This document shows, piece after piece, positions 9,058-49,924 of a stretch of 64,000 bases of DNA (position 1 is its first letter; every line of letters starts with the position of its first letter). Source of the DNA: Luidia sarsii (Eukaryota > Echinodermata > Asteroidea > Paxillosida > Luidiidae); assembly GCA_949987565.1 (NCBI GenBank), contig OX465121.1, positions 3,737,117 to 3,801,116 of the forward strand, in the 5' to 3' direction. Below the pieces are notes generated by a model that was not told the origin of the DNA, ran no database searches, and saw only the letters and a program-made list of their open reading frames with translations. The translations under genes and the position numbers were made by a program.

Positions 9058-9163
9058 ATGCTTCGCGCTGGTGGCGTAAGACACGGAGGAAGGCACTTGA
9101 GGGTAATGCTTCTTCTCTGCCTTTGGACTGCACTCCTCCATCGGATCCACGGACAAGACACAG
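9058..9163 (+). CDS. Signal-peptide first exon, copy A
   Basis: ATG at 9058 opens 35 codons plus one base: a basic N-region (MLRAGGVRHGGRHLR), a hydrophobic core VMLLLCLWTALL, and a likely cleavage site near HG-QDT. The exon ends ACAG before the donor GTAAGA, in phase 1, matching the phase of every downstream domain exon of gene 1 (next 20788). It targets the receptor to the secretory pathway. Copies B and C differ by only a few mostly synonymous bases. Whether A is used by gene 1 as an alternative first exon, or is an orphan, cannot be told from sequence. The start is set by being the first ATG before the leader core. Confidence 0.8.
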
Positions 9164-9517
9164 GTAAGAATTCAATGTCGCTCACAACAGGAAATAACCT
9201 ATAGTGAAGCAAAAACTATGGGTAGGCGTAATACTTCAGGAGCACTGGTATACATTGACCAGCGTGGGCCTGAGGTCTAAATGATTCATTGCTGTCATTA
9301 ATGGTTCATAACATGCCCAACTCTTGAAGTGTACCTTTCAAAATCAAATGGAGGGTCTAGGATTTCGTACAACACTTTTTACCTAACTTTGTTCGCAGTA
9401 TAACTGTGTAAAAGAAAATCTTGTGTAAAAGAAAAGTAGCATGGATTTTGCAGTGTGGCTCCTGCTGATTGTAATTTCATAATAAAATGTGATTTCGTTT
9501 TGAGAAACATGACAAAT

Positions 9518-9767
9518 GTGACCCGGCACAGCGACATGAGGAATATCCCACCAAAACACTTTTCGAGTAAATAACGCCTAAAGTCAAAGTATCTTCTCAA
9601 TTCGGTTAAAAATCAATTCTCTTTTTTTGTGTGTATTTTCGGAAAGTTAATGTATTGGAGAAAATTTTGATATCATTTGAAAGCTAATGGTACACTCTTT
9701 CACATCATTAGAAAATCTCAAAATCTCATAAGTGGGAGTTATTCCTCATTATGATGTGCCGGGTCAC
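9518..9767 (+). mobile_element. GTGACCC-type MITE, copy 4
   Basis: 250 bp, terminal repeats GTGACCCGGCACA / TGCCGGGTCAC, AAAT on both sides. The same insertion is at 13739-13988 in copy B; copy C has the empty site at about 50264 (ATGACTAATAAG). Confidence 0.9.
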
Positions 9768-10605
9768 AAATAAGAATGCTTTTTAATATCATTATCCTGT
9801 ACTCTTACGCCGTGGTCAAGTCTCTTTTCATTCAAGAATTATCCTGGTAAGGCTGAACTCTGACACAGACTAAAATAATGGTTGATGCAGGGAGTTGAAA
9901 ACCCTATCGCAACAGTCTGTGTTATTTGTTGAAAATATTAAATCACTGGAACAAATACAAGGGAGCATTAACTTCGATGACGTTTACAAATCTCCTGGGC
10001 CAATTTTCAAATATTTTTCTACACTTAAAGTCCTCTTTTCAAGGAGTATTTCATTGAGGGATCCTTTAAGTTAGCATATCTTGGACACCGTATCCAATAT
10101 CGATTGTAGCCGGGAGTGGGTTTGTTTTTAAAATGTTTAAAATAATACACAGTTATAATGATCGTTGCATTTTGGACAGGAAGTTGTCTCTGTCAGTCAT
10201 TTTTTCCTCTATTGTTTAATTTAGATAGGAGTTTATATTTCACGTGGAATCGTGTCCAGTCTGTCGGTCACCTATAAGAGCAAAGAAATCCAGCGAAAGA
10301 GAAAACGATGAAATAAAAAATGTCCGACGCTATTCGAGCATAGTGTAAACTAAAAACAGGGGTATAGTAATGCAACAATAGCCGTCGATACGGAACTGTT
10401 CATTGGTGGGTTTTTCCTACCTTCCTGCCTTTCCACCTCATTCATTAATCGTTTTTAAGTTTTCTTTTCCTACCATTACGACTTGGATACAATGAATATA
10501 TTTGTTGAATTTGTTTGAACTTTAGAAAGAATGAGGTGCTATCCAAAAGCACGTTCATTGGGCATAGTTATTCTGCTCTCCAATCTGTTATGTTATTGAT
10601 AATAT

Positions 10606-10854
10606 GTGACCCGACACAGCGACATGAGGAATATCCCACCAAAACACTTTTCGAGTAAACAATGCATAAAGTCAAAGTATCTTCTCAATTCGATTAAAAA
10701 TCAATTTTCTTTTTTCTTTTTATTTTCGGAAAGTTAATGTATTGGGGGAAATTTTGATACCATTTGAAAGCTAATAGTACACTCTTTCACATCATTAGAA
10801 AATCAAAAAATCTCAAAAGTGGGGTTTTTTCTTCATGATGATGTGCCGGGTCAC
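10606..10854 (+). mobile_element. GTGACCC-type MITE, copy 5
   Basis: GTGACCCGACACA to TGCCGGGTCAC with ATAT duplications. In copy C the matching position (50957) holds a different, long-form MITE in the opposite orientation. Confidence 0.85.
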
Positions 10855-11263
10855 ATATAGTTTAAGCAGCAGCATGCGCCTTACCTGTTCTCGACATACT
10901 CTAATTGGGTCGGCTTACAAGTTAGAACTAATAATGGTGCACCCATCCCGGCAAGGACTAGTTGAGTGCTCAGGAAGACCGCTATCTAAGGGTTGATTTG
11001 CTCAAGTGGTAAAAGCGCTGGTAAACTTCGCACTTAAATTTCATGTTCTGGTGCAGTCCAATTCTTTTAGCCACTTTTCATATTGTTTTCCAGAAGGATT
11101 TCCAGTCAGTTTAATCAAGGACACAAGATATCGGGGTTGTTAAACATCGTCACCTGCTACTAAGTATAAGTTTGATCACCCCACTGAGTTCCGCTTTCGT
11201 TCAACGGTTTCACTTAACTGGAACATTATCATGCTCATATCCTCTATGCACGCCCATGTTACA
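10855..11263. other. Unassigned spacer between copies A and B
   Basis: Nothing coding is seen. 10990-11030 has a SINE-like A-box (TTGCTCAAGTGGTAAAAGCG) without a B-box. Confidence 0.4.
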
Positions 11264-13274
11264 AGTTCGTTTGATGTTTGATCGTTGAGCGTGCCCACTG
11301 CAGTAGCGCTGCCTCGATGCTCGGAGCTAAATGTACATGTACATGTACGCGTTTTTCTGGCCTCCTCCGGTGTTCAAGCTACGTTCTGCACCATGCAGAA
11401 CGGTCCTTGCAGCTGTAAACGCCCTCTATTGTTGACGGGACGGAAGTACGCATACAGATTGAAGTGCTGAGTCACGCGAGGGCGAGCATGAGGGGTTGTC
11501 CCCCACAGACATAAATAACCTATTGACGGACAACAGCGGGCGCTTTACTGTTAAAGACTCGTGAAAAACCATGGGCAAACTTGTTCGTCACGTCACACGG
11601 ACGGGCGTACGAGAAAAATGATCGCCAATTTTGGATTCATTGTTTTTTTCTAATAACAAATACGCAAATACACATGTAATGGAGTATGTAGTCATTTCTG
11701 AAAAGAGCTCTTGATCTCAATCAGCATGGTTTCATCCAAACAATCCAGTTTGAATCCACCATTCTCGGATTTTTCCATATGTTTGTGCACATTGTCAATC
11801 TACGTCCGACCATGGTTTCACATTTAGTCACACTTTCCATAGGCGTTGTGTATGGCTGTCGGTCTATAGGTTAATTGTGTGTGTGGTGTCCCGAGCTTGG
11901 GTGAGGACGGGGGAGGGGCCGCCACAGAAAGATTGTAGATTACTTGATTGATTGATTTAATTCATGTAAGCAGAGGGATAATGAAGGCATGGCATAGAAA
12001 TTGTAAATTCTGGATCCACGTAGTACATGCACCTACGGGACGTGTGCTCACATGTTAAATATCAATTTGGATACATACACAGCTGCTCTATGGTCTAGCA
12101 ATACGCATTATGAGGCTACATATGCCATGCAGAGGCCGTTACTGTCAGGAAACTATCAGAAAAATGTGGATCAATAGAACATGAGCTACAAATTATTTAT
12201 TTCATAATCGGAATATAATTGCCCTAAACAGGTGGAGAAATGAGGGCGACAGCAAGACAAGATCCCAACAATAACTGCTTCAAGTTCAACTGCAATAGCG
12301 CTGCAAACACAACGCATATACAATGTACAGCGAGAGGGTCAAAGGTCACGCTCGTGGCTTCCCACACAACCGTGCAGCCAGGGAAAGCGTGTGTACAAAG
12401 ACACCACATGAATATGTGAGCACGCAAAATAATACAGTACACATACACTGTCCATGGATACTTCAACGCACTGACATGTACATGGGGGTGGCATCAAGGC
12501 AATATTTGCCGAGCCAAACTGCTGGCAACCCTCAGAAAGTGGTCCGGCGATCAAGCAACAGCCAATCGTACAGCTCAGCAACACACAGCAACGGCTATAT
12601 CCGTGCGACAGCAAGCCGAAGTTCACGGGCGTGCTGTATAATGCCATCGGCGCTGTATATAGGCTATACGTTACCGACTAAGGGCCTAATTACTCGGCGA
12701 AATTATACCCATTGAAGCCCCGGAAGAGTGCGATGTCCCAGATCCCTAGACTCGCTTCAGGCTTTTCAATGAAACTGTTCTGTGGAAACCCCTCTGCCCC
12801 AAACTTTCCCAAAAGTTTCCAAAGTTTCCCATTTACTCGGTTAGTTCCCGCCCCCCACCCCCCCCCCAAAAAAAAAACACCCAGTCCAGTGCGGACAGGG
12901 CTTCAGCATGATCGAGAGGGGAAATGGTTGTTTGGGATTTAACTTCGTGTGAAGTAATGCGAGGTTTAGGTTTGCTTTATGTGCCAAAGTCAACTGCGAC
13001 TTACAGTACCTGTATGCATTATGATTGTTCATCGAACCCCTCGGTGCGTCCATTATGCACAACTATATTTTAGGTTTGTGTTGATCCCACAACACACACA
13101 TTCTGACGCTGCGCACTGCCAGTGTAAACCATTTTAAATTTATTTCCTTCTCGTTTCGCGTGTCGTTCGCTGTCCCGGGCAGGGAAATTGATGGAAATAC
13201 AGGCTTGAATTACTCGGCGGTGAAAGTGGAATCGCGTTTCAAACTGCTCGGACATTGACCGGTCAATCTTCAGC

Positions 13275-13380
13275 ATGCTTCGCCCTGGTGGCGTAAGACA
13301 CGGGGGAAGGCACTTGAGGGTAATGCTTCTTCTCTGCCTTTGGACTGCACTCCTCCATCGGATCCACGGACAGGACACAG
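13275..13380 (+). CDS. Signal-peptide first exon, copy B
   Basis: Same 35-codon leader as copy A with Pro for Ala at residue 4 (MLRPGG) and the core VMLLLCLWTALL. Ends ACAG before GTACGA, a weaker donor than the GTAAGA of copies A and C, in phase 1. It is the leader exon closest to the first propeller exon of gene 1 (20788), whose phase-1 start joins it cleanly to give an Asp codon. Strongest candidate for gene 1 exon 1, although the DIRS element and a minisatellite lie in the intervening 7.4-kb intron. Confidence 0.8.
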
Positions 13381-13738
13381 GTACGAATTCAATATCGCTC
13401 ACAACAGGAAATAACCTATAGTGAAGAAAAAACTATGGGTAGGCGTAATACTTCAGGAGCACTGGTATACATTGACCAGCGTGGGCCTGAGGTCTAAATG
13501 ATTCATTGCTGTCATTAATGGTTAATAACATGCCCAACTCTTGAATTGTACCTTTCAAAATTAAATGAAGGGCCTAGGATTTCGTACAACACTTTTTACC
13601 TAACTAAATTTGTTCGCAGTATAACTGTGTAAAAGAAAATCTTGTGTAAAAGAAAAGTAGCATGGATTTTGCAGTGTGGCTCCTGCTGATTGTAATTTCA
13701 TAATAAAATGTGATTTCGTTTTGAGAATCATGACAAAT

Positions 13739-13988
13739 GTGACCCGGCACAGCGACATGAAAAATATCCCACCAAAACACTTTTCGAGTAAATAACGCCT
13801 AAAGTCAAAGTATCTTCTCAATTCGGTTAAAAATCAATTCTCTTTTTTTGTGTGTATTTTCGGAAAGTTAATGTATTGGAGAAAATTTTGATATCATTCG
13901 AAAGCTAATGGTACACTCTTTCACATCATTAGAAAATCTCAAAATCTCATAAGTGGGAGTTATTCCTCATTATGATGTGCCGGGTCAC
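13739..13988 (+). mobile_element. GTGACCC-type MITE, copy 6
   Basis: Orthologous to copy 4 within the duplicated segment: same flanks (ATGACAAAT ... AAATAAGAATGC) and same orientation, so it predates the A/B duplication or spread by conversion. Confidence 0.9.
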
Positions 13989-14652
13989 AAATAAGAATGC
14001 TTTTTAATATCATTATCCTGTACTCTTACGCCGTGGTCAAGTCTCTTTTCATTCAAGAATTATCCTTGTAAGGCTGAACTCTGACACAGACTAAAATAAT
14101 GGTTGATGAAGGGAGTTGAAAACCCTATCGCAACAGTCTGTGTTATTTGTTGAAAATATTAAATCACTGGAACAAATACAAGGGAGCATTAACTTCGATG
14201 ACGTTTACAAATCTCCTGGGCCAATTTTCAAATATTTTTTCTACACTTAAAGTCCTCTTTTCAAGGAGTATTTCATTGCGGGATCCTGAGCATATCTTGG
14301 ACACCGTATCCAATATCGATTGTAGCCTTGTAGCCGGGAGTGGGTTTGTTTTAAAAATGTTTAAAATAATTCGGTTTTTGGTCGCTTGTCGACCGAAGAC
14401 CCACTTTGGGAGCGGGGAAGGGAGAATGCCCGTCTGAAGAAAGGCGTTGGTTTGCGTGCCGTACACGCTTGGCCCTAGAAAGCTGACCAGCAATGGGGCC
14501 GGTCAGGCATGCAGTCGGGCGAGGGGCGCGTTGTTGGTTCTTTTGGCCGCGCACCTCCGCTGGGGGTGCATCGTTGTTAAAAACTCTCCGCAAGTTTTTT
14601 AGCTGATTCAAGATTCAAGATTTCTGAAATTTGTCAGTGCTGCAGCTTGAGC

Positions 14653-15860
14653 ATGGCTAGAGGCAGGAAGAGGAAAGCGCAGGAGGCCCCTGCTCGACGG
14701 TCAATACGAGCGGTACGTGTTCAAACGCGCTCGGAGTCGCGAGCAGTCGATATGCTCCGTGCACCGCCTGATCAAGGCCAAGTGAGAGAGCCCCAATACT
14801 CAGTCAGCGCTGCCGACCCCGGAGTAGTCAATATCAGCAACCGGACTTCGTCCTTAGGCAGGAGTGCAAGGCAAAGAGGCTCTCAGCAGCAAGACCCATC
14901 AAGTGACAACGCCGTGGCGTCAACGTCGGCACAACCTCCTGGGAACTGCTCGCTGGGTTCCAGGTCCAAGCCGACATTCACGAACCCCCGTATTCCCGAT
15001 CCCCGGCGCCCATGATGACCGGCAACGCAGCGGCGGCACTGGGCTACGCCGGCGGCATATCGGGCCAAGCGCCGTCTATGGGACTGGGACAGGCTACAGC
15101 CGGAGGAGTGAGCAACCCAACATCCCAGCCCTTCGGCAGATTTGGAAGCTCAGGAGGGAACGTCCAGCCAACTTCGTCCAGCAAAATCCTTCTGGATCGC
15201 AAATCCCAAGCTAGTACCACACCTAATTTGACATTCACCTTAGGTAACAATGGGCAGATACAGGTCGTTGACTCTAAGAAGAAGGCTCAGATAAGCTAAT
15301 TTCTTGCGTGGACTGATGTTTTTCTCGTTTACACATCGGTATTCCTGAGCGCACATCCGGCCAGGTGTCAAGAGCTACTTAAATACATGCATGTCATCAG
15401 GACAGCAGCAGCCCGCTTTCCAGGCCGGGGTTGGGTTGAATACGACAGGCAGTTTAGAATGCGCCAGCAGTTACACCCTACTCGGTCCTGGGCAGTAATA
15501 AATGGGGAACTATGGGCACTTTACGTGATTACACCTATAGTACCCCTAGCACATACGCCACGGTCGCTACAGGTTCGAAGGTCACGCAAGGGGGGAAGCG
15601 TTTTGGAAATTCTTTTCGTTGGATCCCGCAACAAACCAACCGCGGCACAAACACGTGTTTCGCATTCAATCGAGCCACATGCGTTAATTCACAGTGCAGA
15701 TATGTTCGTCGATGCCTCGGATGCAATGCCCTTATGGGCATGGACTCACAGCATGCAAAGCCAACAAAGGCAAACCTCCCTCTACTGCACAGTAAAATGC
15801 AGGCTATGCAACCGGCTTGTGGCTTGGGGAATCATTGTGTATGCTGTCTCGCTCGAACGC
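14653..15860 (+). pseudogene. DIRS Gag, broken
   Basis: Starts at ATG 14653 with a basic Arg/Lys/Ser-rich head. The frame shifts at an ATGA overlap (15012-15015), meets TAA at 15297, then continues in the same frame as FLAWTDVFLVY and IRTAAARFPGRGWVEYDRQF, which is the conserved DIRS Gag core, and shifts again near 15520 into a cysteine-rich end (CFAFNRATCVNSQC...RCLGC). Gag would package the element's RNA. Three lesions make it non-functional. Confidence 0.7.
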
Positions 15861-15867
15861 CAATTAA

Positions 15868-17330
15868 ACTTTCTTTGCTAAGGCAGCAGCAGAGAGGTTA
15901 CGCAGTGGTTTTACAAATGGTTTTGGTCTCGGTTACAGCGGGCCGCGTGAACGACGGGATGCACCTAACCTGCAGTCCGTTAGGCAAAACACACACGCGG
16001 CTTTTGAAACATTGGAAAAAGAGATCCCTTTAGGGCGTATGGCCGGCCCGTTTACCACCCTTCCAATTGACAACCTTCGAATATCCCCCATAGGTCTCGT
16101 CCCCAAATCAGAGCCGGGCTCATTTAGGTTAATCCATCACTTGTCTTACCCAGACTCGGATTCAGTCAATGACGGTATTGACAGGACACTTTGCGCAGTC
16201 CGCTATTCCACTTTTGATGACGCGTTGCATTTGGTTACAAGGGCAGGGAAGGGCTCTTCCCTTGCTAAGGCGGATATTAAATCGGCATTTCGCCTCTTAC
16301 CAATTCACCCTAATGACTTTTGTCTTTTGGGCATTAAGGTCCAGGACAAGATATATGTGGGTAAGGCCTTGCCCATGGGGGCTTCCTGTGCTCCGGCTCA
16401 CTTTGAATCTTTTTCTACGTTTTTGGAATGGGTTTGCAAACAGCAGTCTGGCTTCGGTGGTATGTGCCATTACGCCGACGATTTTCTTTTCGTAGGAGGG
16501 TCAGATGAAAATGCACCCTCATCATGCAAAGCAGTGCTTGAGTCCTTTAAGCGTACATGTTAAATGCTGGGGGTACCGTTAGCTGAGGATAAGACAGTAG
16601 AATTACCTACTTCCGAGCTAGTTTTTTTGGGATTGGAAATTGACACGGAGGCATTATCAGTGGCCGTTCCTGAGGTCAAACTTTTGAAAGAGCGCAATAA
16701 GATAACAGCTGCGCTGGCTTTAGAAAAAATCTCACTTCGCTCACTTCAGTCTTTGACAGGGTCCCTTGCCTTCATTTGCCGAGCGGTAACCCCAGGTAGG
16801 GCATTTCTCGGGAGGCTAATTGATCTCACTATAGGGATCAAAAAGGCTCGGTACTTAATACGCCTGAGTAAGGGAGCAAAAGAGGACTTGCGCACGTGGC
16901 AATTTTTTCTGCACAGTTTCAATGGGAGGGCGATCATTGCTGACCAATATTGGGTGCTGGACTCTGATGTGCAATTCTTAACAGACGCTAGTGGGGGGAT
17001 TGGGTTCGGGGGATTCTACAATGGGCAGTGGTTCGCAGCACCGTGGCCACAAAAAATAAAGATTGCTAAACATTATATCGCTTGGCTGGGATTTTTTCCC
17101 TGTGGTTGTAGCAATAACGCTCTGGGGTCATAGCCTACTAGGCCGGCGCGTCATTGTCCGTTCTGACAATGAGGCTGTCGTTGCCATCCTTTGTAAGCAG
17201 ACATTACGGTGTAGCTCTATAATGCGGTTGGTCCGGTACTTTGTGCTACGTTGCCTAAGAGACGATGTGGCTTTCAAAGCCCAACATATCCCTGGTGAGC
17301 ATAATGAGATTGTACAGGGGGCTTGGCCTG
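15868..17330 (+). pseudogene. DIRS reverse transcriptase-RNase H, broken
   Basis: One open frame from 15868: GFTNGFGLGYSGPR, EIPLGRMAGPF, ISPIGLVPKSEPGSFRLIHH, then AKADIKSAFRLLPIHP, LPMGASCAPAHFESF, and the catalytic box YADDFLF (DIRS usually has YLDD). A TAA at 16561-16563 splits it exactly before LGVPLAEDKT. The second half gives FLGLEIDT and the RNase H start FLTDASGGIGFGG. A frameshift near 17090 moves to FPVVVAITLWG, RVIVRSDNEAVVAIL and HIPGEHNEI. Reads as a recently dead element because frames on both sides of each lesion are well conserved. Confidence 0.85.
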
Positions 17331-17440
17331 CCCGGGCCTTGGTTTTTCCCTGCTGGGGCGCCCCTCGTAACCTGTGGGGTGGGGTGGGCCACACAAAAAT
17401 GGTGTCAAAAACATGCACGCCCATATTTGAGCGGTGCTAG

Positions 17441-17963: not shown

Positions 17964-20256
17964 TACTCGGAATACTCGACCAGCATGACTCTGACTACTC
18001 GACCAGCATGACTCGACTACTCGGCCAGCATGACTCTGACTACTCGACCAGCATGACTCGACTACTCGACCAGCATGACTCGGACTACTCGACCAGCAAG
18101 ACTCTGACTACTCGACCAGCATGACTCTGACTACTCGACCAGCATGACTCGACTACTCGACCAGCAAGACTCTGACTACTCGACCAGCATGACTCGGACT
18201 ACTCGACCAGTATGACTCGACTACTCGACCAGCATGACTCGGACTACTCGACCAGCATGACTCGACTACTCGACCAGCATGACTCGACTACTCGACCAGT
18301 ATGACTCGACTACTCGACCAGCATGACTCGACTACTCGACCAGTATGATTCGACTACTCGACCAGCATGACTCGACTACTCGACCAGCATGACTCGGACT
18401 ACTCGACCAGCATGACTCGACTACTCGACCAGTATGACTCGACTACTCGACCAGTATGACTCGGACTACTCGACCAGCATGACTCGACTACTCGACCAGC
18501 ATGACTAGACTACTCGACCAGCATGACTCGACTACTCGACCAGCATGACTCTGACTACTCGACCAGCATGACTCGACTACTCGACCAGCATGACTCGACT
18601 ACTCGACCAGTATGATTCGACTACTCGACCAGCATGACTCGACTACTCGACCAGCATGACTCGGACTACTCGACCAGCATGACTCGACTACTCGACCAGT
18701 ATGACTCGACTACTCGACCAGTATGACTCGGACTACTCGACCAGCATGACTCGACTACTCGACCAGCATGACTAGACTACTCGACCAGCATGACTCGACT
18801 ACTCGACCAGCATGACTCTGACTACTCGACCAGCATGACTCGACTACTCGACCAGCATGACTCGACTACTCGACCAGCATGACTCGACTACTCGACCAGC
18901 ATGACTCTGACTACTCGACCAGCATGACTAGACTACTCGACCAGCATGACTCGACTACTCGACCAGCATGACTCTGACTACTCGACCAGCATGACTCGAC
19001 TACTCGACCAGCATGACTCGGACTACTCGACCAGCATGACTTGACTACTCGACCAGCATGACTAGACTACTCGACCAGCATGACTCGACTACTCGACCAG
19101 CAAGACTCTGACTACTCGACCAGCATGACTCGACTACTCGACCAGCATGACTCTGACTACTCGACCAGCATGACTCTGACTACTCGACCAGCAAGACTCT
19201 GACTACTCGACCAGCATGACTCGGACTACTCGACCAGCAAGACTCTGACTACTCGACCAGCATGACTCTGACTACTCGACCAGCATGACTCGACTACTCG
19301 ACCAGCAAGACTCTGACTACTCGACCAGCATGACTCGGACTACTCGACCAGTATGACTCGACTACTCGACCAGCATGACTCGGACTACTCGACCAGCATG
19401 ACTCGACTACTCGACCAGCATGACTCGACTACTCGACCAGTATGACTCGACTACTCGACCAGCATGACTCGACTACTCGACCAGTATGATTCGACTACTC
19501 GACCAGCATGACTCGACTACTCGACCAGCATGACTCGGACTACTCGACCAGCATGACTCGACTACTCGACCAGTATGACTCGACTACTCGACCAGTATGA
19601 CTCGGACTACTCGACCAGCATGACTCGACTACTCGACCAGTATGACTCGACTACTCGACCAGTATGACTCGGACCACTCGACCAGCATGACTCAACTACT
19701 CGACCAGTATGACTCGACTACTCGACCAGCATGACTTGACTACTCGACCAGCATGACTCTGACTACTCGGCCAGCATGACTCGGACTACTCGACCAGCAT
19801 GACTAGACTACTCGACCAGTATGACTCGACTACTCAACCAGCATGACTCGACTACTCGACCAGAATGACTCGACTACTCGACCAGCATGACTCGACTACT
19901 CGACCAGCATGACTCTGACTACTCGACCAGCATGACTCGACTACTCGACCAGTATGACTCGACTACTCGACCAGCATGACTTGGACTACTCGACCAGCAT
20001 GACTCAACTACTCGACCAGCATGACTCGACTACTCGACCAGCATGACTCTGACTACTCGACCAGCATGACTCGACTACTCGACCAGTATGACTCGGACTA
20101 CTCGACCAGCATGACTCGACTACTCGACCAGCATGACTCGACTACTCGACCAGCATGACTCGGACTACTCGACCAGCATGACTCGACTACTCGACCAGTA
20201 TGACTCGACTACTCGACCAGTATGGCTCGGACTACTCGACCAGCATGACTCCGACT
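17964..20256. repeat. 22/23-bp minisatellite, about 100 units
   Basis: Units CATGACTCGACTACTCGACC+AG (22 bp) alternate with 23-bp variants having TCGG or TCTG after GACTC; point variants include GTATG, CAAGA and CTAGA. Longer blocks repeat, for example those starting with GTATGATTCG at about 18350, 18611 and 19484. It sits in the first intron of gene 1. The open frame through its start is produced by the repeat and is not a gene. Confidence 0.97.
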
Positions 20257-20787
20257 AGGACATGTTGACGAACTTAATAATTAGGTTAGGTTGCTTGAAT
20301 CACAGTCTGCATTGGTGCATATACCTCTCCTGACACAGCAGTAATTCATGCGCTGAATCTGATTGCATATTTGATTGCAAATATGCAAATTTGCTAAAGT
20401 GAATTTGTTTCGGAGTATAGCTCTTTCTGTCTGTTATGGGAAATATAAACCAAATGCACTGTATGCCTGAAACAAATTATGCCTAAGAAATACATTGCCA
20501 TGAAGGAAGCACATACATGTCATCCTACTTGACGTCTTGACAAGATAATCATCTTATTATGTCAAGCCGACATACATGTACTATGCATATCGTACAGTAT
20601 GTCTAGTTTGTCCTACCATGTCGACTTATCAACCTCTTCACTCGTCTTCATGAGGAGTTGATCTTATCAGTCAATTTAACAAACTGGATGTCTAAGGTAG
20701 ATCAGGTTGCCAATTAAAAAAAAATAATTCAATAGGAATCAGTCGACACGGTATGTCGTGTCTTAATAATCATACCCTTGCCTTTAG
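20257..20787. other. Gene 1 intron 1, distal part
   Basis: AT-rich DNA ending in the acceptor TTGCCTTTAG before 20788. No other feature is seen. Confidence 0.7.
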
Positions 20788-23860: not shown

Positions 23861-24151
23861 GCGGTAGGGTCTATTGGTGCGACGCGGGGCTAGATCTGAT
23901 CGAATCCGTGGACCTCCAGGGTCAGGATCGGTGCACTCATGCCAGCCTGCCAAGCGGTAGCAACAATTTAGACATCTGGTTCTACAAGAACAGCTTGATC
24001 TGGACCGACGGAGACAATGATCGTCTGTTCAGCATGAACTTGACGGCGACCAACCAGCCGAGCAGGATTGGCTACTCTAGCTTCTCGGTACCCCTTGGAC
24101 TGCACATTTACGAAGGCAAGAATGAGTCAAATGTGCATCGCCACTCCACAT
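23861..24151 (+). CDS. Gene 1 exon 5: YWTD propeller blades 5-6
   Basis: Acceptor CTTACTGTCCAG, phase 1 in. Encodes GRVYWCDAGLDLIESVDLQG (blade 5, Cys in place of the motif Thr) and LIWTDGDNDRLFSMNL (blade 6), ending SVPLGLHIYEG, the closing strand. The 3' end is uncertain: the only phase-1 site nearby is GTTCAC at 24152, a weak donor. The frame stays open about 210 bp further, into the 20-bp satellite, which I treat as chance. Start well supported; end weakly. Confidence 0.75.
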
Positions 24152-24162
24152 GTTCACTGTCA

Positions 24163-26135
24163 TCAGCTCAGCCCAGTTCCGCTCGGCTCAGCTCAGTTCT
24201 GCCCTGCTCAGCTCGGTTCATACCAGCTCAACCCGGCTCAGCTTACCTCGCCTCTCCTCAACTAAACTTAGCTCAGCTAAAACTCAGCTCAGCGCGGTTC
24301 AACTCTGTTTGGCTAAACTCAGCTCAGCTCAAACTGAGCTCAGACCAGCTTAGCTCAGCTTAACTCATATAGCACAGCTAAACTCATCCCAGCTCAGCAA
24401 ACTTCTAAGCTAATCCCAGCCAAGCTAAGGTCGGCTAAGCACAGCCCAACTGGGCTAAACTCAGCCCAGCCTAGCTAAACTCATCCAAACTCAGCCAATT
24501 CCAGCAAAACTTATCCCAGCTCGGCTAAACTCGGCTTAGCTCTGCTAAACTCAGCCCAGCTCGGCTAAACTCAGCTCAGCTCGGCTAAACTCAGCTCAGC
24601 TCGGCTAAACTCACCCCAGCTCGGCTAAACTCATCCCAGCTCGGCTAAACTCATCCCAGCTGGGCTAAACTCAGCCCAGCTGGGCTAAATTCAGCCCAGT
24701 TTGGCAAAACTCATCCAAGCTCAGCCAAACTCAGCCCAGCTCGGCTAAACTCAGCCCAGCTCGGCTAAATTCAGCCCAGCTCGGCTAAATTCAGCACAGC
24801 TCGGCTATACTCAGCCCAGCTCGGCTAATCTCAGCCCAGCTCGGCTAAACTCAGCTCAGCTCGGCAAAACTCATCCCAGCTCAGCCAAACTCATCCCAGC
24901 TCGGCTAAACTCAGCCCAGCTTGGCTAAATTCAGCCCAGCTCGGCTAAATTCAGCCCAGCTCGGCTATACTCAGCCCAGCTCGGCTAAACTCAGCTCAGC
25001 TCGGCTAAACTCAGCCCAGCTCGGCTAAACTCATCCCAGCTCGGCTATACTCAGCCCAGTATGGCTCAACTCAGCCCAGCTCGGCTAATCTCAGCCCAGC
25101 TTGGCCAAACTCATCCCAGCTCGCCTAAACTCAGCCCAGCCCGGCTATACTTAGCCCAGCTCGGTTAAACTCAGCTCAGCTCGGCTAAACTCAGCACAGC
25201 TCGGCTAAACTCAGCTCAGCTAGGCTTAACTCAGACCAGCTCGGCAAAACTCAGGCCAGCTCGGCCAAACTCAGCCCAGCTCGGCTAAACTCAGCCCAGC
25301 TCGGCTAAATTCAGCCCAGCTCGGCTTAACTCAGCCCAGCTCGGCAAAATTAAGCTAAGCTCGGCTTAACTCATCCCAGCTCGGCTTAACTCATCCCAGC
25401 TCGGCTAAACTCAGCACAGCTCGGCAAAACTCAGCCCAGCTCGGCTAAACTCAGCCCAGCTCGGCTAAACTCAGCCCAGTTTGGCAAAACTCATCCCAGC
25501 TCGGCCAAACTCAGCCCAGCTCGGCTAAACTCAGCCCAGCTCGGCTAAACTCAGCCCAGCTCGGCTAAATTCAGCCCAGCTCGGCTAAACTCAGCACAGC
25601 TCGGCTAAACTCAGCGCAGCTCGGCTTAACTCAGCCCAGCTCGGCCAAACTCAGACCAGCTCGGCTAAATTCAGCCCAGCTCGGCTAAACTCAGCCCAGC
25701 TCGGCTTAATTCAGCCCAGCTCGGCTAAACTCAGCTCAGCTCGGCTTAACTCAGCCCAGCTCGGCAAAACTCAGCCCAGTTTGGCAAAACTCATCCCAGC
25801 TCGGCTAAACTCAGCCCAGCTGGGCTAAACTCAGCCCAGCTCGGCTAAATTCAGCCCAGCTCGGCCAAACTCAGCACAGCTCGGCTAAACTCAGCTCAGC
25901 TCGGCTAAACTCAGCCCAGCTCGGCTTAACTCATCCCAGCTCGGCTATACTCAGCCCAGTTTGGCTATACTCAGCCCAGTTTGGCTATACTCAGCTCAGC
26001 TCGGCTATACTCAGTCCAGCTCGGCCAAACTCATCCCAGCTCGGCTAAACTCAGCCCAGCTCGGCTAAACTCAGCTCAGCTCGGCTTAACTCAGCTCAGC
26101 TCTGCAAATAGTACCTGAGCTCCACTGGGCTATGC
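24163..26135. repeat. 20-bp satellite, about 95 units
   Basis: Unit AGCTCGGCTAAACTCAGCCC in gene 1 intron 5. From about 24400 to 26100 the 20-bp register never slips; variation is by substitution only (CAGCCC, CATCCC, CAGCTC, GGCAAAAC, GGCTATAC). The first 200 bp are less regular. Two-unit and longer blocks recur. Confidence 0.97.
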
Positions 26136-26460: not shown

Positions 26461-26760
26461 TTTTTTGAAAAATTGGCAAAGGAAACTTTGACTGGACTGG
26501 GATTTGAACCCGAGATCTCTAGACTAACGTACCAGTGCTCTTCCATCTGGGCTTTCCAGCCCTTAGATAGTGTCCTCCCAAATAGTCAACAGTCTTTGCC
26601 GGGGTAGGGGCACCAGTCAGAAGCGATTCAACCATTAACTGCCGTATATCTGCAGGGATCGCACCCCCGCTTTCATTCAGATGCAAACAAATAATTGTTG
26701 TAGACCTGGCTACGGCTGCTCGGGGATCACACAAAGTGCCTTCAGATTTTTCAATTAAAT
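26461..26760 (-). repeat. tRNA-derived SINE, copy 2
   Basis: tRNA-like head at 26490-26561 (minus strand; B-box GGTTCAAATCC, degenerate A-box), flanked by the CCCTTAGATAGTG, CTTTGCCGGGG and GGGATCGCACC blocks shared with copies 1 and 3. It abuts the broken end of the gypsy element. Confidence 0.75.
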
Positions 26761-26821: not shown

Positions 26822-27692
26822 TTAGATATTCGTTCTTGGTGTAGTCCAATTTCTGACACGCTCAACCTTCTCGGGATCTGCCCCTTCACCACACACAATG
26901 TGACCCAGGATGGACACAGAAGACTGGAATAATCTGCACTTAGCACCCTTCAGCTTTAGCACAGCACAGCACCTTTTCCAGGCGACTAAGATGTTCCTCA
27001 AAGGTAGAGGAAAAGACCAGTAAGTCATCTAAGTAAAGAACAACTTCAGAAAAATTCATATCCGTTGGAACGTGCTCGGGCTATTCGATAAACCCTGCGG
27101 CAATCGCAGGAACTCGTACAGGCCCCAGGGCACCCTGAAAGCCGTTTTCTCTACGGACTCCGAATGTACTGCCACCTGGAAATATCCTTGGGCCAAGTCG
27201 AGAGATGAAAACACCCTAGAGCCACCCAATGATTCCAACGCCTCCTCGATTCGGGGCAATGGGAACGTGTCTTTTTGTATCTTAGCGTTGAGACGTCGAT
27301 AGTCGACGCACAGTCGCAGACGTCCGTCACGCTTCCTGACCAATACAACAGGGCTTGCAAACGGACTCTTCGACTTCTGAATGACATGCCTATCCAACAG
27401 GTCCTGAAGAAATCGCTTAACCGCGGCAACACATGGCGGAACAGTCTGGCGATAAGGCAGGTTAACGCGAGAATCATCACGAATCTTTAATTTCGTGAGG
27501 AATAAGTGTGCAACAGCCAAGGTCGTAGGGGTCCATGGAGAAAGCATTCACATGCTTCTGTAGTAATCTCGCTGCATCTACCGCTTCGGTGGCGTCCAAG
27601 CCCTTGAGGCTTAGACCAGGAGGCAAGTCAAAAGTGGCCCCATCTGGAAATGTGAACACCTCTCGCAGATCATCAGGTGCGACATTCTTCAA
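26822..27692 (-). pseudogene. Ty3/gypsy reverse transcriptase, frameshifted and truncated
   Basis: The N-terminal part shows NAFSMDPYDLGCC, then after a frameshift near 27485 the core motifs SPFASPVVLVRKRDG, LRLCVDYRRLN and FSSLDLAQGYFQ. The YLDDLLVFSS catalytic box lies at 27024-27035 in another frame. It ends before the thumb is complete. It would copy the element's RNA; it is not functional as it stands. Confidence 0.85.
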
Positions 27693-32376: not shown

Positions 32377-32493
32377 ACCACTTCACGGACCATAGCTGCG
32401 TGGACTCTCAGCCTTGTGAAACAAACCAGCGGTGCAGGCAATTTGACACTAATTATGCCTGTGTTTGTCGCGATGATGCAGTCTGCTTAACTG
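32377..32493 (+). CDS. Gene 1 exon 6: EGF-like domain
   Basis: Acceptor CATCTTGCAG, donor GTAAGT, phase 1-1, 39 codons. Six cysteines spaced C-X5-C-X5-C-X8-C-X1-C-X5-C (SCVDSQPC, QRC, YACVCRDDAVC), the EGF order with a short last loop. In LDLR-type receptors an EGF follows the propeller in the same way. Confidence 0.85.
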
Positions 32494-35906: not shown

Positions 35907-36029
35907 ATGATGCGTGCAGTGGTGTCACGTGTATGAATGGAGGCTCGTGCGTTAGGTCTGCAACACTGGGCGACGGCTACGTCTGTCACTGCCCTCTCCG
36001 TTATTCTGGCATCCACTGTCAGATATTTG
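35907..36029 (+). CDS. Gene 1 exon 7: EGF domain
   Basis: Acceptor CCGCCATACAG, donor GTAAGC, phase 1-1, 41 codons. Classic EGF: CSGVTCMNGGSCV, GDGYVCHCPLRYSGIHC, with the MNGG-C, C-x-C and G-x-x-C landmarks. No calcium-binding D-x-D/N-E at its start. Confidence 0.9.
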
Positions 36030-36801
36030 GTAAGCACAGAAAGTGCACGGGATATTCTGATTAGAATGTAGTCCTTTCTTTATGCTGGGATTGAGTACGA
36101 TCTGTTTGCCTTTGTGAAAGGCCCTGCATGATGCAGGAAACGTCAGCAATATTTGATTATATTTGCATTTTGACGTGCTAGTTAATAGCGGTTGGCAACA
36201 GTTTGGCCTATCCTTCTAGGAATAGGTATGAGGTATATTAAATTGTTCGTGCTACGCCAATACGTTTCTTGATTGGAACAACAAACCTAATCTGAAAACA
36301 TACGTGCTTAAACCTTATTTGTTCCATAAACATGGTATCGATAAATCTGCGTGCGCGGTGCATAAGCTGATTTCAAGTTGACACACGCCATTACTTTGGT
36401 CACCCGAAACCGTCCGCTATGACGTCATGCAGAGCTGCACCTGAGACCCGCTCACCATTTGTGGTTGTGGCGGTTGATTCCAGGGCAAATACCAAGAATC
36501 GCGTGAGGTCACCCCGGACGCTCCCGTGTAGGCCTACCTTACATTTGCATGCGTTCACTTATCGAACCCAGCCCTCCATCTAAAAATATACGGAACTCTT
36601 GAAGTGCATTCGGTTTATTAAGATATCTCGAGAAAGATTGAACCTAAAGTCATGCAGGTTGAATTCGGATTAAGGTGCAAGTCTGAGTTATTTCTTCCTG
36701 TGACTAAGATCCTTGTATATGTCACAAGTCAGTCAAGTCTGACTTTCAGTTATTAACACTGTAGTTTGATTGGATGTCCTGCTTTGTTGCCATGGATACA
36801 G
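36030..36801. other. Gene 1 intron 7 with PLE tail relic
   Basis: 36108-36147 carries GCCTTTGTGAAAGGCCC, then GGAAACGTCAGC, a decayed hammerhead-like PLE tail. Confidence 0.55.
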
Positions 36802-37035
36802 AAAACAGAATGCTAGCCTGTCCACGAAACATCAATGTGTCGGCCGATTGGGAAGGAAACAGCACCGACGTGTCCTGGCCTGGCTTTGTGGTCATAGACA
36901 ACGACCTTGTGGCGTTCCTATATGTCTCCCATCCCAATGGCAGTGAGTTCTTCATTGGCACCTGGACAGTGGAGTACACAGCAGAAGATTTAAGCGGGAA
37001 CTTGGAAACCTGCAGCTTCACTGTCACCGTCCATG
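36802..37035 (+). CDS. Gene 1 exon 8: HYR domain
   Basis: Acceptor GGATACAG, donor GTAAAA, phase 1-1, 78 codons. HYR landmarks: LACPRNINV at the start, SWPGFVVIDND in place of the usual W..P...DN, GTWTVEYTAEDLSGNLETC and FTVTV at the end. HYR is an immunoglobulin-like adhesion module, usually next to EGF, sushi or SRCR domains. An ATG at 36774 in the same frame lies upstream of the acceptor and is not a start. Confidence 0.9.
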
Positions 37036-38526: not shown

Positions 38527-38643
38527 ATGTGAATGAGTGCGATACTAACCCATGTCCCTCCGAACGTCTCTGCATCAACAAGATCGGCAGCTTCTTGTGC
38601 AGATGTCCGATTGGCTTGGTCCTCGTTGGACCCTATTGTGTTT
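38527..38643 (+). CDS. Gene 1 exon 9: calcium-binding EGF
   Basis: Acceptor TGTGTATTTCAG, donor GTAAGA, phase 1-1, 39 codons. DVNECDTNPCPS is the calcium-binding N-terminus, followed by CINKIGSFLCRCPIG with the family's N/S-x-x-F/Y segment and a final cysteine in GPYC. The Asn that is usually hydroxylated is present (INKIGSF). Confidence 0.92.
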
Positions 38644-39296: not shown

Positions 39297-39424
39297 CTAA
39301 GTCAACATTTAGGGGTGCCTTTGTCATTACTCGTATCGGCACTTCAGAGGCCATTTTCAGTCCGGACTTGGCAACAGTCACATCTGAGGGCTTCCGGCGG
39401 ATGGAGAGAGACATCACTGAAGTG
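39297..39424 (+). CDS. Gene 1 exon 10: SEA domain, first half
   Basis: Acceptor TTGTTCCTTAG, donor GTAAGG, phase 1 in, 0 out. STFRGAFVITRIGTSEAIFS, then LATVTSEGFRRMERDITEV has the SEA start (F.G.F.I, FS..L, hydrophobic helix). Joins exon 11 in phase 0. SEA domains sit just outside the membrane in mucin-like and adhesion receptors. Confidence 0.75.
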
Positions 39425-40110: not shown

Positions 40111-40330
40111 CTGGACGGTATCTTCAAAGGTGAGGAGTCTTTCGTTGAATCTCAAGTGCTTGGCCTATCCAGTGGTAGCATTGGGGTAGAATATCTTGTC
40201 ATCTTTGAATTGGACACCAGTGTGACGAAAAACATAGTCACCAGACAGATGAGTGACAGCATCTCAACGGACGGAGAGATAGCGAACAGCGCCTTATACA
40301 TTCGTCCATTATCCCTATCTCATGTCAATC
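40111..40330 (+). CDS. Gene 1 exon 11: SEA domain, second half
   Basis: Acceptor GGCACCCCACAG, donor GTAAGT, phase 0 in, 1 out. VESQVLGLSSGSIGVEYLVI has the SEA turn where many members self-cleave at G-S-V-V-V; here it reads GSIGV, so autoproteolysis is possible but not certain. Ends YIRPLSLSHVN. Confidence 0.8.
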
Positions 40331-41029: not shown

Positions 41030-41105
41030 AAATATGTCCACAGGGATATTGCAAGAACGGAGGAATTTGTTCCATGGACCCTGAAACCTTTGAAAGCACT
41101 TGCAC
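41030..41105 (+). CDS. Gene 1 exon 12: membrane-proximal EGF, first part
   Basis: Phase 1 in, 2 out; donor GTAAGT. Encodes ICPQGYCKNGGICSMDPETF up to ESTC, the first four cysteines of an EGF completed in exon 13. Confidence 0.85.
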
Positions 41106-41717: not shown

Positions 41718-42009
41718 GTGCGACAGTCTCTACTCCGGGGAGCGATGTGAGGTCACAAGTGTTGTGTCACCTCTGGTCTTTGTCATGGTGGCAGTTGCTG
41801 TGGTCTTCATTGTCCTCATTGTGCTCTTTGTCTGCTTCTGTCTCTTTCTGCCCAACCGTCTGAATGAGGACCCAGGGGTCAGGTACCCCGTGGCCTCTCA
41901 CTTTGGGCCACCATACAATCCGCATGGCAAAGGTTTCTCCACCATTTTCCCCACCCGTACCCTGCACATGTACCTCTACCCTGGCAATTACCGCTTCAAT
42001 GACGCCTAT
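41718..42009 (+). CDS. Gene 1 exon 13: EGF end, transmembrane helix, cytoplasmic start
   Basis: Acceptor CATGCCTTTCCAG, phase 2 in. TCDSLYSGERCEV completes the EGF (C-x-C-X8-C). The helix core VFVMVAVAVVFIVLIVLFVC is a strong single-pass segment, followed by LPNRLNEDPG and a Pro/Tyr/His-rich tail (YNPHGKGF, YLYPGNYRF). The perfect donor GTAAGT at 42010 falls inside the open frame in phase 0; if unspliced, the frame would stop at 42054. Splicing to 42920 is preferred because a compatible exon and poly(A) signal follow. Confidence 0.88.
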
Positions 42010-42919
42010 GTAAGTTCCATCCAACCTGGACCTCTGGGGTTTCGGGGGTTGTAAGCTGCGAAGCCAATGAAATAGAACCACTTTCCCGTCAATGCATCTG
42101 TTTGGCCATGCGGCCATCCCTCTGCCAATCTGTTTTAGTCGTTTGCATGAAATGTGAAACTATTTTGCACCGTCGCTGTTGACTGTTGTCTACATTTGCA
42201 CTGACACGAGATTGATAAGCTCTCTAATTTCCTTAATTTTATATGCATATTGTGGCTAACTTGAGCAGTGATTGTTTAATTATTAACGAAAACGCAAATA
42301 TTGTATGGAATACTTGTGCACATCACTCAGCCACACTCTCAGTTAGTTTCATCCATAGATGGCGTTGTTCAATTTGTTTCAAAATGTAAAAAAGAAGTGA
42401 GACTGAAGCTAGCCGTGACTGCACTTCTGTTCTGGTAGTATATAAGTTACCCTCTTGTCATTTTGGTCACATTGTGGTAACCGTTTTTAGCAAGGGCAAG
42501 AAAGAGACCGGTGTGAATGTGCACTCTCCTTTCCTGACAATGTAAATTTGACTGGGGAAATCCACACAAACACTATGTTCACATATCTCATACATTTTAT
42601 TTCATTTTATATTTTGTATTGTACTAAGCCACGTCTGTATTATGTTCCTTTATGGATGATGTTGTTTAATGTGTATCATGTTGAGACTGCAGCAAAACAT
42701 GGACGTCTCTAATATAGCTTCATAAACATCCATTCTGCCTCTGAATTTATTCATCCAAGGGTGCAAGCACCAACGCAATCCTACTCTCCATCATTCCAAT
42801 GGCCACAGCATTCCAAAGTAATACGTTTCACCATTAAGCTAAGATGCCCTCTGTATTTTCCCACCAGGCCCCAGTTTGCTGACAATACTCCACTTTCATG
42901 CGACTTTACATTTCTACAG
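42010..42919. other. Gene 1 intron 13
   Basis: A second good acceptor, TATTTTCCCACCAG at 42867, would give a terminal stop after four codons (APVC), an alternative short tail. Confidence 0.5.
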
Positions 42920-47368: not shown

Positions 47369-47515
47369 TTCGTTTGATGTTTGATCGTTGAGCGTGCCCA
47401 CTGCAGTAGCGCTGCCTCGATGCTCGGAGCTAAATGTACATGTACATGTACGCGTTTTTCTGGCCTCCTCCCGTGTTCAAGCTACGTTCTGCACCATGCA
47501 GAACGGTCCTTGCAG

Positions 47516-48003
47516 GGTGCAGCACACAAAATCCATCCAAGATGGCTCCGCCGAGCTGATTATCATAAAGTGTGTACCCACAACTTTTTTTTAATAAGGG
47601 GTCTTTGGAGGCTAATTAACTGATACATTGTAGAACAAGTGAAGCTTAAGACAACCTGGGGGTTCACTCTTCAATTTGGTATGTAATTTGGACCATATCT
47701 GGCTTTAAATGTGGCCCTATTTGGCTGTGGAAGTGGAGGGGTCCATCCCAAAATCCTTGCAGAAATTCGGCTTGGACGACTACACATTTTGGGGGTGTTT
47801 TTTTCTGAGGGTAATTAGCAAAAAATCTAATCGGCTAAGAGCACTAAAATTGAAAAGAATCTGAGAGATGAAGGTCCAAACTACAATTTTAAGTATAGCT
47901 ACAAGAACTGAGAGACTTTTGGGCATGGGATAATTGACTTTGAAAGTGAGTGTTTTTGTACAGTGTTCAATGGGAGCTCTATTTAGTGTTCTGCACCCTA
48001 TAG
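47516..48003. mobile_element. Insertion with short terminal inverted repeats, copy C only
   Basis: Copy B reads CCTTGCAGCTGTAAACG without a break; copy C has 488 bp at that point. Ends GGGTGCAGCACAC and GTGTTCTGCACCC are inverted repeats with one mismatch. No protein coding seen; probably a non-autonomous DNA transposon. Target duplication not clear. Confidence 0.7.
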
Positions 48004-49818
48004 CTGTAAACGCCCTCTATTGTTGACGGGACGGAAGGACGCATACAGATTGAAGTGCTGAGTCACGCGAGGGCGAGCATGCGGGGGTGTCCCCCACAGC
48101 CATAAATAACCTATTGACGGACAACAGCGGGCGCTTTACTGTTATTTCAAGACTCGTGAAAAACCATGGGCAAACTTGTTCGTCACGTCACACGGACGGG
48201 CGTACGAGAAAAATGACCGCCAATTTTTGATTCAATATTTTTTTCTAATAACAAATACGCAAATACACATGTAATGGAGTATGTAGTCATTTCTGAAAAG
48301 AGCTCTTGATCTCAATCAGCATGGTTTCATCCAAACAATCCAGTTTGAATCCACCATTCTCGGATTTCTCCATATGTTTGTGCACATTGTCAATCTACGT
48401 CCGACCATGGTTTCACATTTAGTCACACTTTCCATAGGCGTTGTGTATGGCTGTCGGTCTATAGGTTAATTGTGTGTGTGGTGTCCCGAGCTTGGGTGAG
48501 GACGGGGAAGGGGCCGCCACAGAAAGATTGTAGATTACTTGATTGATTGATTTAATTCATGTAAGCAGAGGGATAATGAAGGCATGGCATTGAAATTGTA
48601 AATTCTAGATCCACGTAGTACATGCACCTACGGGACGTGTGCTCACATGTTAAATATCAATTTGGATACATACACAGCTGCTCTATGGTCTAGCAATACG
48701 CATTATGAGGCTACATAGGCCATGCAGAGACCGTTACTGTCAGGAAACTATAAGAAAAATGTGGATCAAAAGAACATGTGCTACAAATTATTTATTTCAT
48801 AATCGGAAAATAATTGCCCTAAACAGGTGGAGAAATAAGGGCGACAGCAAGACAAGATCCCAACAATAACTGCTTCAAGTTCAACTGCAATAGCGCTGCA
48901 AACACAACGCATATACAATGTACAGCGAGAGGGTCAAAGGTCACGCTCGTGGCTTCCCACACAACCGTGCAGCCAGGGAAAGCGTGTGTACAAAGACACC
49001 ACATGAATATGTGAGCACGTAAAATAATACAGTACACATACACTGTACATGGATACTTCAACGCACTGACGTGACATGTACATACATGGGGGTGGCATCA
49101 AGGCAATATTTGCCGAGCCAAACTGCTGGCAACCCTCAATTAGTTCCCCCCCAAAAAAAAAAACAAGAAAAAAAAAAAAAAACAAGAAAAAAAAAAAAAC
49201 AACAACAACAGTCCAGTGCGGACAGGGCTTCAGCATGATCGAGAGGGGAAATGGTTGTTTGGGATTGAACTTCGTGTCAAGTGATGCGAGGTATTTGCTT
49301 TATTATGTGCCAAGATCAACATGTATCTTATTCTACGTTCACTGAACGTCTCAGTGCGTCTATTGTACACAACTGTTATGGGGTTTGTGTTCCCACAGCA
49401 CACACATTCTGACGCCAAACTGCTGGCAACCCTCGGTTAGTTCCCCCCCCCCCAAAAAAAAAAAACAAGAAACAAAAAAAACAACAACAACAGTCCAGTG
49501 CGGTCAGCTAGGGCTTCAGCATGATCGAGAGGGGAAATGGTTGTTTGGGATTGAACTTCGTGTGAAGTAATGCGAGGTTTAGGTTTGCTTTATTATGTGC
49601 CTACTATACCTTCATGTATAATAAATATTCTACGTTCACTGAACGTCTCAGTGCGTCCAGTGCCAGTGTAAACCATTTTAAATTTATTTCCTTCTCGTTT
49701 CGCGTGTCGTTCGCTGTCCCGGGCAGGGAAATTGATGGAAATACAGGCTTGAGTTACTCGGCGGTGAAAGTGGAATCGCGTTTCAAACTGCTCGGACATT
49801 GACCGGTCAATCTTCAGC

Positions 49819-49924
49819 ATGCTTCGCCCTGGTGGCGTAAGACACGGGGGAAGGCACTTGAGAGTAATACTTCTTCTCTGCCTTTGGACTGCACTCCTCC
49901 ATCGGATCCACGGACAAGACACAG
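49819..49924 (+). CDS. Gene 2 exon 1: signal peptide, copy C
   Basis: Same 35-codon leader as copies A and B (MLRPGGVRHGGRHLR, core VILLLCLWTALL with Ile for Met), ending ACAG before GTAAGA in phase 1. The next in-phase exon on this strand is the first SRCR exon at 57172; joining gives [14 protein letters not shown], a secreted or surface SRCR protein. The 7.2-kb intron includes an assembly gap, so a missed exon is possible. Confidence 0.8.

Follow-up and report, generated by a model that had tools for sequence, protein, structure and literature searches.

How did nearly the same first exon come to stand in front of different receptor-like genes? This question is raised by a stretch of 64,000 nucleotides of the sea star Luidia sarsii (contig OX465121.1; hereafter the window), in which three leader exons were located: leader A (9058..9163; 35 codons plus one base, donor CAG/GTAAGA), leader B (13275..13380; donor CAG/GTACGA) and leader C (49819..49924; donor CAG/GTAAGA). 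These exons and all the other features of the window given below lie on the forward strand. The 35-residue peptides of A, B and C differ from one another in only 1–2 residues. Each leader lies inside a repeated segment of about 3 kb composed of upstream DNA, the leader and the start of the intron: cassette A (7666..10637), cassette B (11411..14370) and cassette C (48002..50988), with about 1.4–1.9 kb of shared upstream DNA. The first-pass annotation had reported three leader exons with almost the same signal-peptide-like sequence and phase-1 ends inside such repeats, and this was confirmed in the sequence.

The ungapped identity among the three cassettes was about 95–100% in most 200-column blocks and about 79–87% in some, the latter being poly-A and repeat-rich; the blastn pieces, gaps included, were mostly about 87 to 98% identical. 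A scan of both strands of the window for an ATG followed by a hydrophobic stretch and a phase-1 donor returned five rows, corresponding to the three leader starts and, in A and B, one internal Met each. Within this criterion, which is limited to phase-1 donors, no alternative signal-like first exon of either downstream gene was found in the window. The surroundings of the three cassettes are different. An insertion of about 250 bp, itself a repeat, is common to A and B and absent from C, there is a repeat at the edge of cassette A, and a retroelement follows B, within the intron that leads from this leader to the first gene (14581..17437, outer limits taken from open frames; reverse transcriptase PF00078 on 15868-16560). 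Additionally, an N gap of 200 bases (51254-51453) lies just 3' of cassette C. A cassette carried by a mobile element was considered, as the edges of A, B and C are at or near repeats (the 250-bp repeats, the retroelement), yet no repeat was seen that delimits all three; therefore, an ordinary duplication whose edges have since eroded is favoured.

Since a single gene lies downstream of both leader A and leader B, the window contains two genes behind three leaders. The domains previously noted behind them were found again, propeller/EGF/SEA in gene 1 (leaders A and B) and SRCR/HYR in gene 2 (leader C), although both lists were incomplete: gene 1 also encodes a HYR domain, and gene 2 has GPS and 7TM exons that lie outside the window. 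Behind the leaders, gene 1 has four predicted exons of a YWTD/LDLR-B propeller, P1 (20788..21030, phase 1>1), P2 (21917..22094, 1>2), P3 (22543..22670, 2>1) and P4 (23861..24115, 1>1, with a GC donor). These are followed by a first EGF-like exon (32377..32493, 1>1; Pfam EGF match under the cut-off), a second EGF exon (35907..36029, 1>1), a HYR exon (36802..37035, 1>1; PF02494, E=5.8e-14) and a calcium-binding EGF exon (38527..38643, 1>1). The SEA domain is encoded in two halves, the first assigned by eye (39297..39424, 1>0) and the second with a profile E=8.9e-4, under the Pfam curated cut-off (40111..40330, 0>1). The first part of another EGF, also assigned by eye (41030..41105, 1>2), precedes the last exon (41718..42054), which contains the end of this EGF, a single TM helix recognized by eye, a short tail and the stop. 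The 13 exons form a single frame of 753 amino acids with all phases matching. Adhesion GPCRs are recognized by a GPS plus a 7TM part; the chain of gene 1 ends instead in SEA-EGF-single TM with its stop at 42054, and visual inspection of the exon scans, which reached 47300, showed no GPS- or 7TM-like exon. When the gene 1 model was compared with proteins (7995 candidates sharing the most words were scored), 51 were matched at E<=0.001, and the top two were from Patiria miniata and Acanthaster planci. The tail alone (residues 380-753) matched eight proteins, all HYR-bearing according to Pfam and bacterial where the organism was given; a sea-star relative of the tail was absent among these eight.

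Gene 2 is different in its middle part. Behind leader C there are six predicted SRCR exons, all of phase 1>1 (57172..57486, 58257..58571, 59363..59677, 59796..60104, 60698..61012 and 62207..62524), and a HYR exon of the same phases (63582..63854), after which come the GPS and 7TM exons beyond the window. The GPS (PF01825, E=5.4e-19) has the sequence CSCDHLTNFAILL, in which H-L-T agrees with the autoproteolysis motif H-X-S/T as given in the part of the source used here (PMC13062082). A class-B-type 7TM was detected on one exon (7tm_2, PF00002, E=1e-5), and further TM-like exons were recognized by eye at window-scale positions 78505-80026, one of which had no Pfam match when run alone (L022:4621-4764). 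The exon before the GPS, also without a Pfam match, is called the GAIN-region exon here because of its position and its by-eye likeness to the A. planci protein P0005. From leader C, 12 exons up to window-scale position 69338 fit in phase without a stop, the chain onward to GPS and 7TM being incomplete. The HYR part of gene 2 matched 403 proteins, and the best 120 of these were mostly hyalin-like proteins of echinoderms and HYR-repeat proteins whose source was bacterial or not named, plus adhesion GPCRs.

A search of the whole genome detected five complete copies of the leader, and a single contig carries them all within a span of 333 kb; the sixth-ranked match was noise (E=1.08). The first-pass annotation had asked for such a search, and the two additional copies, D and E, stand ahead of genes with adhesion-GPCR-type 7TM exons. 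The gene of D has HYR-type and 7tm_2 exons (7tm_2 E=4.2e-5) and a GAIN-region exon of 91% identity, while no GPS exon was present in its exon list. The gene of E combines propeller, EGF and HYR-type exons with both a GPS (PF01825, E=8.7e-17) and a 7tm_2 domain (PF00002, E=1.2e-5), although its locus might hold two genes. Both gene bodies were located with a home-made exon finder that used an approximate splice matrix; several training exons had wrong ends in one run, and in later runs the training exon 36782-37035 was still in the wrong frame. As D, E and gene 2 all have adhesion-GPCR-type exons, the leader seems to be the exon with which a subfamily of adhesion GPCRs starts.

The comparison of copies B, D and E revealed full identity over a short tract. 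The leader exons of B, D and E are the same in 106 of 106 bases and also in the 60 bases upstream, so that the tract from -60 to +105 contains 0 mismatches in 166 positions in D-E, B-D and B-E, against 100/287, 84/272 and 79/283 mismatches in the respective flanks; the limits of the tract were chosen after looking, and the p-values are therefore descriptive. Moreover, B has intronic variants at +109 and +119 that are common to E alone, inside flanks that are otherwise like those of A and C, and these two are the only sites that separate B and E from A, C and D. Segments of paralogues more alike than their flanks, together with variants common across loci, are the pattern of a gene-conversion chimaera.

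The sharing extends to other exons. The GAIN-region exon of gene 2 is identical to that of E in 383/388 nucleotides and to that of D in 370/388, and among its 17 genome-wide matches at least 91% identity was reached in three, exactly the genes of C, E and D. HYR, GAIN-region and 7TM exons are common to gene 2 and the genes of D and E, and the propeller and first two EGF exons are common to gene 1 and the gene of E, the first EGF-like exon with 87% amino acid identity. Between gene 1 and E, dS was 0.07 in P1 and 0.37 in P4, a contrast that makes this pair a mosaic; dN/dS was 0.8-1.1 in the propeller exons measured. By contrast, the HYR exons of D and E (182-185/273) and the GPS exons of C and E (144/176) are not homogenised. 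The identity and dS comparisons were made on a subset of exon pairs selected by us. A highly similar exon between dissimilar flanks (exon >=96%, a flank <=70%) was found in 9 of 50 selected pairs, all of one exon type, with the flanks aligned jointly with the exon and forced end to end. One HYR2 query was in the wrong frame, so its matches indicate DNA likeness only; the exon-pair comparisons used the correct frame.

These results point to the leader being, probably, the first exon shared by the members of a small cluster of related putative surface receptors, shaped by common descent together with recent 5'-end duplication and ectopic gene conversion. Three of the genes (those of D, E and C) would be adhesion-GPCR-like, and the fourth, gene 1 behind A and B, would be a single-pass relative. 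The leader, once spliced to the exons behind it, would provide a signal peptide for entry into the ER, and the symmetrical phase-1 exons that follow (propeller units, EGF, SRCR, HYR) could be exchanged without breaking the frame; thus, the front (the leader) is common, the back (GAIN region and 7TM) is common in three of the four genes, and the middle varies. Recent duplication of the 5' end (A, B and C) and ectopic conversion (B-E and others) would together keep the leader, some 60 bases upstream and some 45 bases of intron nearly identical. Gene 1 would be a chimaera in which the leader, the propeller and a pair of EGF exons are of the E type and the tail is HYR-EGF-SEA-EGF-TM; it seems to have exchanged the 7TM body of an adhesion GPCR for one with SEA and a single TM. 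In compact and easily read form, the locus illustrates how new receptors could arise from exon shuffling combined with gene conversion, the signal-peptide exon remaining fixed while the symmetrical exons behind it change.

The earlier proposal was that promoter and leader had been copied together and set before different domain sets, understood here as unrelated ones, founding two commonly regulated genes. Part of this holds, as a block of about 3 kb, made up of the upstream DNA, leader and intron start of A, B and C, was duplicated or homogenised between genes 1 and 2 in recent time, the exon phases fit the phase-1 exons downstream, and the other exons of the two genes differ. Nevertheless, the founding of the genes in this way is unlikely, because the leader also heads the genes of D and E, which carry it without cassette-wide identity and share exons beyond the cassette with genes 1 and 2. 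The exons behind the leader are thus explained by descent from leader-bearing relatives, and in each case gene and leader were most likely inherited together. Even less credit is given to cassettes A and B (or C) being uncollapsed haplotypes or mis-joins with a single leader before gene 1. A difference of a few percent is within the range between alleles in heterozygous marine invertebrates and the N gap adjoins cassette C, but the 250-bp insertion sets A and B apart from C, the neighbours of all three differ, and the loci of D and E are plainly distinct.

The appearance of conversion could also be produced by extreme selection on the DNA or RNA around the leader: the tract from -60 to +150 would be held by translation or splicing control or by a promoter element, and the family would share it by descent. 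The fourfold sites of the leaders, with 0-1 differences per 19-20, and the conserved noncoding bases that flank the exon at either end in all five copies are what such selection would leave. It is improbable that selection acted without any conversion, however, given the private intronic variants of B and E and the recurrence of the exon-high, flank-low pattern outside the leader. Moreover, the leader peptide is unlike 11 N-termini of P. miniata and A. planci proteins (best local alignment scores 12-28), compared as relatives rather than established orthologues and including several records without a signal-like start. A broader idea, possible although rather doubtful, is that of a constant-variable-constant receptor locus that serves as a germ-line generator of diversity in adhesion receptors. 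Exon-sized conversion would homogenise the leader/5' end and the GAIN-region/7TM back, the ectodomain exons between them would be swapped and driven to diversify, in line with the dN/dS of the propeller exons measured, with SRCR inserted, and tandem leaders (A with B, and a truncated copy that lies upstream of D) would be alternative starts.

Human EMR2/ADGRE2, a chimaera of CD97 and EMR3, is the closest precedent: in the sections of the two sources drawn on (PMC10055975, PMC2720389), adhesion-GPCR relatives have one part homogenised by conversion and others diverged. What is shared there is the EGF exons and the 7TM part, whereas in the sea-star cluster it is the leader exon and selected ectodomain and GAIN-region exons, and the 7TM part is missing from one member. 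In amphioxus, adhesion GPCRs likewise have SRCR and other cysteine-rich modules in their N-termini, for which domain shuffling was suggested by the authors; they are non-echinoderm, and the portion of that report used here mentions neither a shared leader nor exon homogenisation (PMC2246102). Tandem duplications in Drosophila yakuba, according to the excerpts considered (PMC5460883), similarly shuffled regulatory elements and made chimaeric gene structures, but these were sampled in populations with expression data, whereas the sea-star cluster is a repeatedly homogenised family known from sequence alone. Searches of the PMC open-access set showed no paper on the leader or the cluster, which is no proof of absence.

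Among sea-star relatives, no SRCR match was obtained in the four proteins scanned, and P. miniata P0098 has HYR-GPS-7TM without a propeller. A. planci P0109 has an F5/8-type-C domain before its HYRs and no GPS or 7TM match. The A. planci proteins P0005 (adhesion GPCR G6-like) and P0110 (LOC110978300) have the order propeller-EGF-HYR-GPS-7TM, as in the cluster, with a hydrophobic N-terminus directly before the propeller. Together with P0002, P0004 and P0109, these two appear to lie on one A. planci scaffold.

The three leader exons of the window (G000:C24:3737117-3801116 of a 470.9-Mb assembly) were confirmed where the first-pass annotation had placed them, at 9058-9163 (A), 13275-13380 (B) and 49819-49924 (C). 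Each comprises codons for 35 residues, MLR[A/P]GGVRHGGRHLRV[M/I]LLLCLWTALLHRIHGQDT, and the first base of the following codon, directly before a GT donor. A scan of both window strands for an ATG, a hydrophobic stretch and a phase-1 donor gave five rows, all of them from these three exons. The duplicated segments of about 3 kb around the leaders were also recovered by blastn self-comparison of the window (cassettes A, 7666-10637; B, 11411-14370; C, 48002-50988), with pieces mostly about 87 to 98% identical. In the joint alignment, interrupted at poly-A tracts and repeat insertions, most 200-column blocks agreed over about 95-100% of ungapped positions and some over about 79-87%; a repeat of about 250 bp was common to cassettes A and B and lacking in C. 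An abundant ~250-bp repeat, which sits at cassette edges, was observed in both orientations in the window (1635-1877, 7412-7667, 9516-9772, 10604-10859, 13737-13993, 52156-52417 and 55691-55906), with many further copies in the DNA surrounding the window.

Leader A and 12 more exons (20788 to 42054) form a predicted chain, gene 1, with all phases matching, a single stop and 753 residues; leader B, of the same phase, could equally head it. Pfam detected LDLR-B propeller repeats in four exons (P1-P4), an above-threshold EGF (28.1 bits, exon 35907-36029), HYR (5.8e-14) and EGF_CA, while an EGF-like match on exon 32377-32493 and a SEA match (8.9e-4) were below cut-off. By eye, the chain terminates in EGF and one TM helix. 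Within the intron from leader B to the propeller lie a reverse-transcriptase element and a minisatellite of 22-bp units (17965-20257, about 102 copies, 93% matches), the latter strongly asymmetric between strands (GC skew -0.29). A second long array (24163-26102, GC skew -0.31; made up from 24507 on of about 80 copies of a 20-bp unit) starts at most 50 bases from P4, which is followed by a GC-AG intron (AAG|GCAAGA, 24113-24121). Long minus-strand frames resembling a retrotransposon polyprotein (27059-29736, reverse transcriptase by eye) lie in the intron between the propeller and EGF exons.

Behind leader C, six SRCR exons (3.5e-31 to 4.7e-29) and an HYR exon (3.6e-13), all phase 1-1, were detected with Pfam. 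The next 19 kb beyond the window contain further HYR exons, a GAIN-region exon, a GPS exon (5.4e-19) and 7TM exons (7tm_2, 1e-5). The GAIN-region exon had no Pfam match and is named from its position and its likeness to Acanthaster planci P0005. Gene 2, as predicted from these exons, is therefore most probably an adhesion GPCR; its exon chain is incomplete between HYR and GPS.

Searching the whole genome with the leader as protein yielded six matches: five full copies on the same contig and one at E=1.08. The two copies outside the window, D (3453558-3453662) and E (3688976-3689080), are on the minus strand. A DNA search also turned up a leader truncated after codon 17, lying 1.2 kb upstream of D (L010, 3454834-3454885, minus), and tandem leaders thus arose at a second locus too. 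The exons behind E, in one or two genes, are a propeller, then two EGF exons whose residues are 87-90% identical to those of gene 1, then a third EGF and a second propeller, and finally EGF, HYR, GAIN-region, GPS and 7TM exons. HYR-type, GAIN-region and 7TM exons lie behind D, with no propeller exon among them. The GAIN-region exon of gene 2 had 17 matches genome-wide, three of them at least 91% identical and belonging to the C, E and D genes, and the next best at 62%. Therefore, the leader is a mark of this receptor subfamily, of which gene 1 is a member that lacks the 7TM part. Several exon sets that we take, by eye, to be acyl-CoA oxidase-like lie between leader E and the window, at about 3694530-3736575 (plus strand, L016-L020).

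Leaders B, D and E have identical sequences over positions -60 to +105, counted from the ATG (166/166); A has 4 differences from them in this tract and C has 3. Over the 43 intron bases that follow, the copies match at 39-43 positions. In the flanks (-200 to -62 and 149 to 299), mismatches reached 100/287 (D-E), 84/272 (B-D) and 79/283 (B-E), and were low among the cassettes (6/242 for B-C, 14/281 for A-C, 20/290 for A-B); these limits were chosen after looking, so Fisher values are descriptive. At two (+109 and +119) of the 12 sites that vary between -60 and +149, B and E share a variant that sets them apart from A, C and D, despite the A/C-like flanks of B. Sequence transfer between B and E, which lie 61 kb apart in opposite orientation, would explain this sharing, two sites only, better than parallel change. 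The pattern extends beyond the leader: in 9 of 50 exon pairs chosen for comparison, exon identity was at least 96% with one flank at most 70%, all nine being of one HYR-like type, here named VxLVCP. By contrast, the same comparison found only 182-185/273 positions alike between the D and E HYR exons and 144/176 between the C and E GPS exons.

Nei-Gojobori estimates for gene 1 against the gene of E gave a dS of 0.07 in P1 and 0.37 in P4, a mosaic that fits patchwise homogenisation. The corresponding dN/dS values were 1.10 and 0.81, and 0.88 over six propeller/EGF exons (P1-P4 and EGF1-2, 342 codons), high ratios over short exons being uncertain; seven other comparisons gave 0.28 to 1.20, one with dS = 0 and hence no ratio. 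A ratio near 1 in this part is unusual for an intact receptor, and diversifying selection may possibly act on it.

The best protein matches of the gene 1 model were sea-star proteins. In A. planci P0005 (adhesion GPCR G6-like) and P0110 (LOC110978300), a hydrophobic N-terminus is followed by propeller, EGF, HYR, GPS and 7TM, a layout that parallels a leader directly ahead of a propeller. Patiria miniata P0098 has HYR, GPS and 7TM, and in A. planci P0109 the HYRs are preceded by an F5/8 type C domain, with no GPS/7TM match. These differing fronts indicate front-end swapping in this receptor type in other sea stars too. The N-termini of these proteins are unlike the Luidia leader. Precedents are EMR2 (PMC10055975, PMC2720389) and amphioxus adhesion GPCRs bearing SRCR (PMC2246102). 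A further article describes expanded SRCR genes in A. planci and has a 7tm_2 label in a domain table (PMC10855680).

Judged from sequence, these data are best fitted by a history in which a receptor family would have inherited its leader from a common ancestor, the 5' ends A, B and C would have been duplicated recently, and ectopic conversion would act among the leader copies. The first-pass proposal that promoter and leader were copied as a unit, founding two receptor genes, fits the recent A/B/C event but is not required to account for how the two genes arose.

Additionally, two Rfam tRNA matches were detected on the minus strand of the window (95-168, 49.9 bits; 26489-26561, 32.8 bits). Both sit in a pair of 350-bp repeats, 74% alike, which are possibly a tRNA-derived SINE.
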